In this document: piece after piece, positions 27,255 through 30,369 of the stretch
Layout of the letters: every line of letters starts with the position of its first letter
Numbering within the stretch: position 1 is the first letter of the stretch
Assembly (NCBI RefSeq): GCF_000621545.1
Contig: NZ_JHYA01000001.1
Coordinates: forward strand, 248,001 to 312,000
From: Anaerovibrio lipolyticus LB2005
GTDB lineage: Bacteria > Bacillota > Negativicutes > Selenomonadales > Selenomonadaceae
Direction: 5' to 3'
Length of the DNA stretch: 64,000 nt
The notes under the pieces: generated by a model
Databases searched by the model: none
Told to the model about the DNA's origin: nothing
Seen by the model: the letters and a program-made list of their open reading frames with translations, nothing else
Program-made: the position numbers and the translations under genes

Positions 27255-27770
27255 CTTATTCCAACAGTTTCTATCCTAATATTTTTTTCATGCTATAATT
27301 TATTTGACGCAAAGGAGATTTATAACATTGAAACTGGTCGCCGGCTAAATGAGGATATGGAGCTGCATTTTCTTGAAGTACCAAAATTCCAGAAAAAGCC
27401 TATTGGTGAAATGACCCGCATGGAACGGTGGCTGGCCTACTTCTCAAACAAGCTGAATACTGAGGAAATGGAGGAACTTGCCATGAGTGACGCTACTATA
27501 AAAAAAGCCGTTAATGACGCTGACATCTTCATGATGGATTTTGAAGAACGGCTCAAATATATAAACCGACAGATGGCCATTATGGACTACAACACCGATA
27601 TGCGTGTATCACGTGAAGAGGGCCTTGCCGATGGACGTAAAGCTGGCCGTGAAGAAATGGCTATTGATATAGCTCGTGATATGCTTCGGGACAATAAACC
27701 GATTGAAGAAATCGCCAAATATACCAAACTCCCTGAGGATCGCATTCAGGAACTGACCCAGGAAAAATAA
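27255..27770 (+). pseudogene. C-terminal remnant of Rpn/PD-(D/E)XK nuclease family protein
   Basis: The readable part from 27357 (137 codons) is the C-terminal half of the Rpn/PDDEXK_2 'transposase/nuclease' family: ELHFLEVPKF, MTRMERWLAYFS, REEGLADGRKAGREE, and IEEIAKYTKLPEDRI. The same frame is open back to about 27255 and gives IETGRRLNED directly before, which is also family sequence, so homology extends upstream of the ATG. The N-terminal nuclease core (about 130 residues) is absent and replaced by A+T-rich DNA. A 5'-truncated pseudogene is the simplest reading. Confidence 0.75.
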
Positions 27771-28363: not shown

Positions 28364-28396
28364 GGCCCGCTGGGAACCAGCGGGCCTTTCTTTTTG
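28364..28396 (+). terminator. Terminator after the small secreted-protein gene
   Basis: Perfect 10-bp GC-rich stem (GGCCCGCTGG with CCAGCGGGCC) and a GAA loop, followed by TTTCTTTTT, 64 bp past the stop codon. Confidence 0.9.
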
Positions 28397-28418: not shown

Positions 28419-29162
28419 TTACTCCACTTCCTCCCCCATGATTTCAATCATGCCCTTTATTATGCTCTGGACCTCATTGAAGCGTTCACTTCTCTCACAA
28501 CCCCGGGCAAGGTAGAGACCGCGGTTTATTTCAATCATAACGGACTGGACCCTGCTGTCCTTGCGGTAATACTTCATAGGCACCAGAGCCCCGGCAAAGG
28601 GTGAGTCGATTTTTACCGACAAATTGTGGTCCTGGAGATAATTTACCATTTTATACACCATGTTCGGTGAGGTGTGGTAGTCATCAGTGCCAATACAGAT
28701 ATCCGGGCGGTTTGGCTGCTGGTCAGGCTCATAAGGCAGGGGCTCAGGATAAAAGGAATGGCCATCCACAATGAGACACCTGCCATAATCGGAGAGTCGA
28801 TTTTCCACCACGGCCTCCAGCCGGACGTGATGGGGATCATAGAAGGTCCTGGCCACCTCTTCCCTCTTTTCGGCAATATGCTTTCTGAATGGCTTCATTT
28901 CTGAGCTGTGGGTATAATACAGTCCCATGCCCATACGGCTCATGGACTCCTCCTTGTCATCGCGGAATCTCTCCACATCACATACCAGACGGTTAACCCT
29001 CAGATTGACCATTTCCGCCTCACAGGCAAAGAGCTCATTGCAATACCAGTCTGTCATTACCAGCATTTCGTGGCTTAGCACCTCTAAATCATAGTCTGGG
29101 ATATACGCCTCTGGAATGTACAAGGATGCGTGTGGTACATGAATTACTACATTTTCTAACAT
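28419..29162 (-). CDS. N-formylglutamate amidohydrolase family protein under SAM riboswitch control
   Basis: A 247-residue member of the N-formylglutamate amidohydrolase (FGase/HutG-like) fold. Family segments: HVPHAS near the N-terminus, VNRLVCDVERF, YYTHS, the metal-site DGHSF near residue 135 and a C-terminal MIEINRGLYL. It should be a Zn-dependent deformylase or amidase; the substrate is not fixed by sequence. The ATG at 29162 is best placed (AGGAG nine bases upstream). No histidine-degradation genes are nearby, and a complete SAM-I riboswitch lies directly upstream, which argues for a role in methionine or S-adenosylmethionine metabolism rather than histidine use. Confidence 0.85.
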   Translation of the reverse strand: MLENVVIHVPHASLYIPEAYIPDYDLEVLSHEMLVMTDWYCNELFACEAEMVNLRVNRLVCDVERFRDDKEESMSRMGMGLYYTHSSEMKPFRKHIAEKREEVARTFYDPHHVRLEAVVENRLSDYGRCLIVDGHSFYPEPLPYEPDQQPNRPDICIGTDDYHTSPNMVYKMVNYLQDHNLSVKIDSPFAGALVPMKYYRKDSRVQSVMIEINRGLYLARGCERSERFNEVQSIIKGMIEIMGEEVE

Positions 29163-29206
29163 TTTCATCGTCTCCTTTTGTTCTGTAAACCAAAAAGAGA
29201 CGCAAT

Positions 29207-29347
29207 GAAAAAGCCCATCGTCTTGATGGGCCCGATTTACTTTATCCTACCCATCAATCAAGCTTTAGCACCTTGCCACGTTTTCACCCGTGGCAGGTTG
29301 CTGAAGGGTCATCGAGCTTGTCTCTCGCCTTCTCTTTATGGTTAAGA
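29207..29347 (-). promoter_or_regulatory. SAM-I (S-box) riboswitch with terminator
   Basis: Minus-strand leader with all SAM-I parts. P1: TCTTAACCAT (29338-29347) pairs with ATGGGTAGGA (29245-29254), nine of ten. P2: GAAGG-CGAG with CTCG-ATGAC-CCTTC, including the kink-turn. The core CAGCAACC, P3 (TGCCACG/CGTGGCA) and AGGTGCTAA follow. Downstream is a terminator GCCCATC/GATGGGC (29213-29231) with a T run. TTGATGGG in the 3' side of P1 is exactly complementary to CCCATCAA of the terminator, giving the antiterminator. SAM binding should therefore switch the amidohydrolase gene off. Confidence 0.93.
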
Positions 29348-29466: not shown

Positions 29467-30369
29467 TCAACTTCCATCGCCATCTGAGTTTTCTTCCTCT
29501 ATGACGGTATTAGCACTGGCTTCAATCATTTGTGTAACAACGTGATTTAACTCCGATGCCTTTTTGCTAGTAATAACCGATTTGCCTGTTCCCTCTTCAA
29601 TAGCCTTCCTTGCATCGCCAGCCACCTTGCCACCTCGCTTAGCTACAGAAACATTTTGAGCAAGTCCAGATGGTTTTTCTGCTTCCGAAAATTCTTTGGC
29701 AGCCGTTTCTGCAAGCATATTTATAACTAATTCAGTTGTACTCATATTGTCCCGAAGGCTTTCCTTTTTTAGTCCTTTTAGATTTTTGTACTGACGGGTA
29801 GACATCCCACTCCACGCTCTTGTAAGTTCATCGGTAAGTACAGCATATTCTTTGCCCTGCTTTATCCCACGCTCTTTCCATTCATCCGTTAGTTCCTTGC
29901 GGGCACTGATTGCCATAAGTCGCTGATTGATCCACTCTTTGGTATATCCCTTTCGTTCATAGGTAACCACCAATCTATCAGCTATAAGCTCCGGATCGAT
30001 GGTTTCATCAATACGCTCTTTACCCACCTGGGCCAGCCATAATTTAAACGGTTCTGCCTTTTTCGATGGTATTGACTGTATAATACGCAGCAGCTGTTCT
30101 GTATTTGCCACATCAGTACGTCTACGCTTACCATCGGCGGCTTTTAATTTCAACTGCTTACAATTTGTAAGCAGTTCATCTGCGCCCTCTTCACTAAGTC
30201 TTTTCTTCAAAACAGCCCAATACGTACTGGCGTGTCGTGCATCAGGTTGTTCTGTTAACACCCGCACCACATCCACAATAGAAAAATACCATTCTTCCTC
30301 CGCCTCATTCCAAGCAGTGCGAATAGGCTGGTCCTCAAACAGTTGCATATTTTCCATTTCTTCACTCAT
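29467..30369 (-). CDS. BRO-N / DinD-like protein
   Basis: A 300-residue protein with an N-terminal BRO-type domain (residues 15-115: WNEAEEEWYFSIVDVVRVL, YWAVLKKRL, ANTEQLLRIIQSIPS and FKLWLAQVG). Such domains occur in phage antirepressors and in DinD. The rest (120-290) resembles the DinD-like C-terminus, with the glycine-rich VAKRGGKVAGDARKAIEE near residue 242. DinD inhibits RecA filaments in E. coli; a similar role here is only a possibility. It lies alone in the accessory stretch and is probably of phage or mobile origin. Confidence 0.78.
   Translation of the reverse strand: MSEEMENMQLFEDQPIRTAWNEAEEEWYFSIVDVVRVLTEQPDARHASTYWAVLKKRLSEEGADELLTNCKQLKLKAADGKRRRTDVANTEQLLRIIQSIPSKKAEPFKLWLAQVGKERIDETIDPELIADRLVVTYERKGYTKEWINQRLMAISARKELTDEWKERGIKQGKEYAVLTDELTRAWSGMSTRQYKNLKGLKKESLRDNMSTTELVINMLAETAAKEFSEAEKPSGLAQNVSVAKRGGKVAGDARKAIEEGTGKSVITSKKASELNHVVTQMIEASANTVIEEENSDGDGS

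Follow-up and report, generated by a model that had tools for sequence, protein, structure and literature searches.

What does a SAM-I riboswitch regulate when the only gene behind it bears a name from histidine breakdown? This question is raised by a locus of Anaerovibrio lipolyticus LB2005, contained in the stretch of 64,000 nucleotides analysed here (the window, to which all coordinates refer unless another locus is named). The first-pass annotation of this DNA had described a complete SAM-I aptamer with a terminator and a matching antiterminator, followed by a single amidohydrolase gene, and had placed the enzyme in methionine metabolism. We find that the aptamer is of an unusual type and that the leader holds a second hairpin, over the Shine-Dalgarno (SD) sequence. 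The elements are as follows.

28364–28386, no strand assigned: GC-rich, terminator-like stem-loop between the gene and a convergent ORF, with its T run on the plus strand
28419–29168, minus strand: FGase-like amidohydrolase gene (PF05013, 157.8 bits, cut-off 28.9), a single-gene transcription unit
29169–29202, minus strand: second hairpin, 12 bp, sequestering the SD sequence (-16.3 kcal/mol, z -4.55)
29172–29178, minus strand: SD sequence AAAGGAG, as read in the sequence
29188–29199, minus strand: anti-SD strand, 11 of its 12 positions pairing with the P1 5' strand plus J1/2
29211–29233, minus strand: intrinsic terminator stem-loop with a T run behind it, 7 pairs being preserved across all 32 distinct leaders
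29248–29344, minus strand: P4-less SAM-I aptamer (RF00162 match; helix covariation on 33 leaders, 32 distinct)
29250–29255, minus strand: P1 3' strand GAUGGG, doubling as the 5' arm of the antiterminator
29259–29264, minus strand: 3' strand of the extended pseudoknot, in place of P4
29317–29320, minus strand: P2 loop strand of the pseudoknot, pairing with 29259–29262
29332–29337, minus strand: AAAGAG, i.e. J1/2 plus the first P2a base, also complementary to the anti-SD strand
29338–29341, minus strand: invariant part of the P1 5' strand, pairing with 29251–29254 (invariant in 32 of 32 distinct leaders)

The aptamer, the enzyme and their recurrence

The Rfam SAM-I model (RF00162) matches over its full length (1–108) at 29344–29248 of the minus strand with 55.7 bits (gathering score 44.4, E 3.8e-10), which bears out the SAM-I call by the covariance-model search that the first-pass annotation had proposed. 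It is the sole Rfam match at gathering within the 64 kb, with RF00162 the best member of its clan, and the one other RF00162 match of this genome sits before a metK gene (recognised by eye). The description of the aptamer as complete holds in part: the CAGCAACC and AAGGTGC cores, P1, P2a/P2b and P3 are all found, but the P4 hairpin of the Rfam consensus is a gap in the alignment, its position being occupied by the pseudoknot strand AGCUUG (29264–29259). This strand complements CAAGCU of the P2 loop, 4 pairs of which can form without competition with P2b. P4 is missing from the 13 leaders of alignment A2 as well. P1 is short, with 4 invariant pairs and an adjoining A.G opposition.

In 33 leaders (32 distinct), 99.8% of the cells of P1, P2a, P2b and P3 are paired, with both sides changed in 8 of 30 pairs (3.9 in shuffles), and cells with both-side changes number 46, compared with 10.7 (sd 2.7) in shuffles, a control that ignores the kinship of the leaders, of which few are compensated. 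For the pseudoknot 98.4% of the cells are paired and 2 of 4 pairs are compensated, these events being few and derived from two leaders. We call the window aptamer a P4-less variant that would work like SAM-I, and since its core is conserved and a phage metK gene stands behind the same type of leader (see below), its ligand is presumably SAM.

The gene behind the riboswitch stands alone, as described previously, the genes past its 3' end facing it. Translation probably begins with the ATG at 29162, 9 nt after the SD sequence, as judged from the start of the Schwartzia protein at the same position. A gene for a BRO-N domain protein (29467–30369) lies directly upstream of the leader; this flank is common to genomes G081 and G063, not G021, a hint of mobility. 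Part of a gene of the PD-(D/E)XK transposase family (27357–27770) lies near the convergent end of the enzyme gene.

The survey of Negativicutes that had been suggested for this pairing upheld it. Among the 101 genomes of the family set there are six enzyme matches; the five with a full gene have RF00162 80 bases upstream, and in the sixth (G065) the frame is truncated and lies where the contig ends. Named relatives among the carriers are Anaerovibrio sp. RM50 and JC8, Schwartzia succinivorans and two MAGs of uncultured Anaerovibrio. Extended to 350 genomes of the class, the search found PF05013 in 17: in 12 the gene is full-length, one is G065, and the remaining four are weak matches (31–36 bits), none of which carries an Rfam match. 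SAM-I is directly upstream of all 12 full-length genes, a count that excludes the four weak matches and the fragments in G020 C9, G065 and G266. Since the window leader folds with a z of -5.13 and the pairing occurs in 12 of 12 full-length genes, the riboswitch-gene arrangement is more than chance. An 890-aa frame in G020 that resembled an enzyme fusion was rejected, as it results from an assembly gap read as N with a partial second copy adjoining. In G266 (L061:1500–2400) the enzyme is a remnant, and the adjacent P4-less SAM-I now stands before an HTH-like gene.

SAM-I precedes the enzyme in two Negativicutes families, three deep protein lineages and two aptamer architectures, the second being a canonical SAM-I with P4 (87.9 bits) before the enzyme of G260 (genus g96), a genome whose other three SAM-I precede metQ, metK and metN (by eye). 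Within the genus of the window, R1, a model built from 13 P4-less leaders, matches with more than 100 bits in 5 of 5 enzyme carriers and in 0 of 11 non-carriers. The g78 and g96 enzymes are 36–40% identical to that of the window, and in the enzyme tree (14 rows) the deep forks are weak and the branches long, so that a single clade of SAM-linked lineages is neither supported nor refuted. Among other Bacillota, the enzyme profile gave matches in 12 genomes, none of which had an Rfam match in the flanks of its best locus; only G497 and G450 (230–242 bits) are close, the others scoring 20–56 bits, and some loci lie at contig ends. Outside the class the nearest relative is the G497 enzyme, whose 44% identity exceeds that of the g78 and g96 enzymes and which is without SAM-I.

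What the enzyme does has been suggested by its Pfam name, from which the gene could be taken for hutG, encoding N-formylglutamate deformylase, with the riboswitch left over from another gene. We regard this as very improbable. HutG identity was rejected, the protein scoring 45.8 bits with the TIGR02017 equivalog against a cut-off of 278.75; urocanase (hutU) was detected in 0 of 16 genomes that encode the enzyme, part of it or a closely related protein, by a search that was positive in 5 of 14 controls; and a leftover does not sit well with a SAM-I pairing in 12 of 12 genes. The missing hutU and the score far under the HutG cut-off make a part in histidine breakdown appear unlikely, and SAM-repressed expression is likely. 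Use of N-formylglutamate as a formate source (one-carbon salvage) would be least likely, since no hut source was found by the search, which covered hutU.

A structure of the enzyme predicted from 21 sequences (pLDDT 92.9), which superseded a poor model from 6 near-identical sequences (pLDDT 53.6), has 2q7s as its best solved match (Z 26.8, 2.5 A over 243 residues), and 2odf matches with Z 21.1; at Z 11 and below follow poly-gamma-glutamate hydrolase, pyrrolidone carboxylate peptidases, amidases and carboxypeptidases. The window enzyme has its fold and sequence family (PF05013) in common with 2q7s and 2odf but differs in its identity to them (about 20%), its score under the HutG equivalog cut-off and the SAM-I in its leader.

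It is possible, though we hold it tentatively, that the enzyme liberates methionine, or else a one-carbon unit, from N-formyl- or N-acyl-methionine and belongs to the methionine regulon. The 12 of 12 pairing, the missing hutU, the amidohydrolase fold and the G260 enzyme, with its canonical SAM-I in a genome where the remaining three precede metK, metN and metQ, would all fit; however, the loci read show no met gene next to the enzyme, the same type of leader stands before genes without known methionine roles, and the 44% identical G497 relative has no SAM-I. The methionine part of the first-pass annotation is supported to that extent, by the recurrence of SAM-I and the met sites of G260, but SAM-I alone is no proof of a methionine substrate, because P4-less leaders also precede proteins without a known methionine role, among them an approximately 100-aa phage family, and because G497 lacks it. 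Most probably the enzyme would release an amino acid from its N-acyl form in or near methionine/SAM metabolism, and it may be needed at low SAM. This reading is compatible with the two-gate mechanism described below.

Members of the FGase family are also found in viruses: a Straboviridae Vibrio phage (L181:1501–2202) encodes one with 30% identity, and there are 20 further viral loci, of which the 12 scanned had no Rfam match.

Terminator, SD hairpin and the strands of P1

Each strand of P1 has a second complementary partner downstream. The 3' strand (29255–29250) can form an antiterminator with the 5' arm of the terminator in all 12 distinct A2 leaders, in agreement with the terminator (29233–29211) and antiterminator noted previously; the antiterminator barely varies among these leaders and therefore gives no covariation evidence. 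The 5' strand, together with J1/2, complements the anti-SD strand, the window duplex having -11.4 kcal/mol compared with -4.7 in shuffles (p 0.007). Part of this complementarity is built in, as J1/2 (AAAGAG) resembles an SD sequence. Among six leaders folded, the SD hairpin has z values of -3.2 to -5.7 in five and -1.6 in G043.

We consider it fairly probable that this P4-less SAM-I leader acts as an OFF switch and that its two gates are kept open by one P1 strand apiece. When SAM is scarce, P1 would not be held; i) its 3' strand GAUGGG would pair with the terminator 5' arm to form the antiterminator, and ii) its 5' strand with J1/2 would take the anti-SD strand, so that the SD sequence is free and the amidohydrolase is produced. 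With abundant SAM, P1 and J1/2 would be locked in the aptamer and the terminator would form, and on transcripts that are read through, the anti-SD strand would close over the SD sequence. Both gates would be OFF with SAM, giving a coherent double OFF switch. The aptamer, the terminator, the SD hairpin, both complementarities and the recurrence of the riboswitch-enzyme pair are all present in the DNA itself, from which we infer that either gate may work in cells.

Of 28 distinct leaders in which the duplex between the anti-SD strand and P1 5'/J1/2 was compared with shuffles, 19 gave p <0.05, one (L040) gave 0.08 and 8 (L055, L141, L140, L139, L220, L224, L226 and L227) failed p 0.1; the test omits L187 (start not found) and L190 (start at a distance of 202 nt). 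Multi-copy leaders of g78 (L125–L138) were excluded from this and the two following tests; in most non-enzyme g78 leaders a second terminator-like repeat or a distant start takes the place of the SD hairpin. When partners were permuted among 21 clusters, with one leader each, the mean was -8.8 kcal/mol for own partners against -7.0 (sd 0.44) for permuted ones, with p <=0.0005 in each of 20 resamplings. Along the aptamer the duplex profile peaks at P1 5'/J1/2 with -11.1, values from offset 21 on being -3.8 to -6.1. The predicted cost of opening the SD sequence in 22 leaders was 2.0 kcal/mol with the strand free, 8.1 with it locked and 7.3 with it shuffled, a strand held unpaired serving as stand-in for the bound aptamer. 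In contrast, 38 canonical SAM-I leaders (from 41 loci), including that of the G260 enzyme, gave 2.9 free, 3.1 locked and 3.1 shuffled, so that the gain is 0.17 for canonical and 6.1 for P4-less leaders (p 3e-8). The effect is also absent from L139 and L140, and from L245, the only cluster outside the first set; L247 and L250 of the outside-set test had no recognised SD sequence and were unscored. The leaders are related, and the permutation and shuffle tests correct for this kinship incompletely.

These data bear on a simpler explanation, namely that the SD hairpin is a fixed translational brake and its match to P1/J1/2 a by-product of the SD-like J1/2. Such a brake would account for the 8 of 28 leaders not beyond shuffles and for the negative L245, and the energies of the competing states also agree with it: the minimum-energy fold of the window leader has the antiterminator and an open SD sequence together, but a slightly different cut of the leader folds with the SD hairpin closed, which indicates that little energy separates the states and makes the prediction soft. 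Near-equal energies are needed by a switch and are also what noise could give. However, the match reaches beyond J1/2 to the P1 5' strand and follows the changes there (CCUAU/AUAGG, ACCAU/UGGU, UCAU/AUGA and UAUC/GAUA, by eye), the permutation gives p <=0.0005, and the 38 canonical leaders show no such effect. We therefore think a fixed brake quite unlikely and prefer the two-gate switch.

Comparison with known riboswitches

The window leader is like SAM-I (RF00162) in its P1, P2a/P2b, P3, pseudoknot and core letters and in the OFF logic of its terminator and antiterminator, but differs in having no P4, a pseudoknot of at least 4 bp that continues towards P1, and an SD hairpin matched to the P1 5' strand. 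In the published account of SAM-IV, P4 is also lacking and the pseudoknot strand leads into the P1 3' strand (PMC6890682). The window aptamer resembles SAM-IV (RF00634) in both respects, whereas P5, PK-2 and the four-nucleotide P2 turn of that class were not recognised by eye and its P2 looks SAM-I-like. The SAM-I/IV variant (RF01725), described as having an undivided P2, a P4 and no PK-1 (PMC6890682; for P2 also PMC2864571), was rejected, as in the window P2 is divided, the pseudoknot present and P4 absent.

An anti-SD element that can be sequestered is shared with the met operon SAM-I of Xanthomonas campestris, where the anti-SD in the expression platform is reported to be taken up by uncharged initiator tRNA (PMC7270179); in the window, by contrast, the P1 5' strand of the aptamer itself would take it, and the leader has a terminator in addition. 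Dual control of transcription and translation, called incoherent by the authors, has been described for the c-di-GMP riboswitch Bc1 (PMC11218506) and the SAM-II riboswitch of metA (PMC9373788), unlike which the switch proposed here would be coherent, with one P1 strand per gate. A P4-less SAM-I of this design was not found among the papers listed in searches of the open-licence literature. That literature also yielded no link between N-formylglutamate (or the full name of the enzyme) and a riboswitch, and the main text of a regulon survey (PMC3766115) contains neither 'formyl' nor 'amidohydrolase'.

If the mechanism is correct, one small aptamer would use both strands of its switching helix for coherent control of two expression steps, giving a tight OFF switch. 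Induction at low SAM would then be a testable entry into an amidohydrolase subfamily annotated by name only. The interest lies in the switch more than in the enzyme. The P4-less leader fronts several unrelated genes, and a riboswitch alone is thus a poor guide to the pathway of its gene.

P4-less leaders in other Negativicutes and on phage contigs

R1 matches with more than 100 bits at 33 places in 16 of the 350 Negativicutes genomes, the next match having 63 bits. Eleven of these places precede an intact enzyme. Most of the 22 others, which include one beside an enzyme remnant, stand before proteins without recognised function; some precede an HTH-like gene followed by a VWA gene, or operons that end in a MetK fragment of 112–124 aa; and two are exceptions, the contig of L130 ending before any gene and L138 having no clear gene. 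Searches of these non-enzyme targets with Pfam, PADLOC and NCBIfam named few. Canonical SAM-I in the same genome set precede metK, metN or metQ in 14 of 15 cases (by eye) and the G260 enzyme in the other.

The P4-less core patterns were also found at 26 loci of IMG/VR, all 26 of which R1 matches (87.6–139.3 bits). Sixteen of these viral leaders precede a protein family of about 100 aa (consensus MRTI..LI..E.KVY...), whose scanned members gave no Pfam match and no clear PHROG match. A protein search with this family gave 24 loci, 15 on contigs already found by the riboswitch and 9 on further contigs, and R1 matches just upstream in 24 of 24 (76.9–113.7 bits). Loci of the family are L183, L184, L185, L188, L189, L211, L215, L217, L220, L226, L227 and L229–L252, and the gene is found also in L221, L222, L223 and L228. 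Two loci (L214 and L218) have a full-length MetK directly behind the P4-less leader, which favours SAM as the ligand. Ten larger ORFs were scanned on four contigs: L218 encodes a DNA methyltransferase/ParB protein, a terminase and a portal protein, L184 and L222 each have a DNA methyltransferase gene facing the approximately 100-aa gene, and the ORFs scanned in L212 gave only a helicase and a polymerase. Phage SAM riboswitches were not found among the literature matches listed, nor in a stricter search of the open-licence literature.

With such a distribution the P4-less leader might be a mobile, phage-type cassette caught by unrelated genes and uninformative on the substrate of the enzyme. 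It occurs at 33 places in 16 of 350 genomes, 11 of them before an intact enzyme, in up to 6 copies per genome, and at 26 viral loci, with terminase and portal genes in L218; the flanks of the enzyme vary among the Anaerovibrio genomes, the BRO-N gene included. Nevertheless, we judge this explanation unlikely, as the 12 of 12 pairing is hard to reach by chance capture and the G260 enzyme has a canonical SAM-I, so that SAM control arose or was replaced there independently of the cassette.

The broader proposal, which we regard as evenly poised between right and wrong, is that P4-less leaders form a distinct, compact SAM-I subclass in which the strands of P1 would open two gates, the terminator and the SD hairpin. 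It would be carried by phages before the approximately 100-aa protein or metK, with DNA methyltransferase genes nearby, and would have been adopted in Negativicutes for SAM control of the FGase-like amidohydrolase and several further genes. If this is so, SAM sensing on phages would take place close to methyltransferases of their own, which consume SAM, and to their SAM synthetase.

Several other loci are worth recording. 1) The MetK fragments at operon ends behind P4-less leaders (L125:7545–7889, L132, L134 and L137) are conserved N-terminal-domain fragments. 2) Genomes of g78 (L125–L142) have up to six similar P4-less leaders each, three of them within about 3 kb on contig 4 of G234, and in several a second terminator-like repeat follows. 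3) At L129:1237–1913 (G186) a small gene pair resembling the HicA/HicB toxin-antitoxin genes (by eye) stands behind a P4-less leader. 4) The P4-less SAM-I at L040:4079–5241, which precedes a 330-aa protein without a family, has a different, compensated pseudoknot, and an apparent relative of this protein (by eye) is encoded behind the same type of leader in L224.
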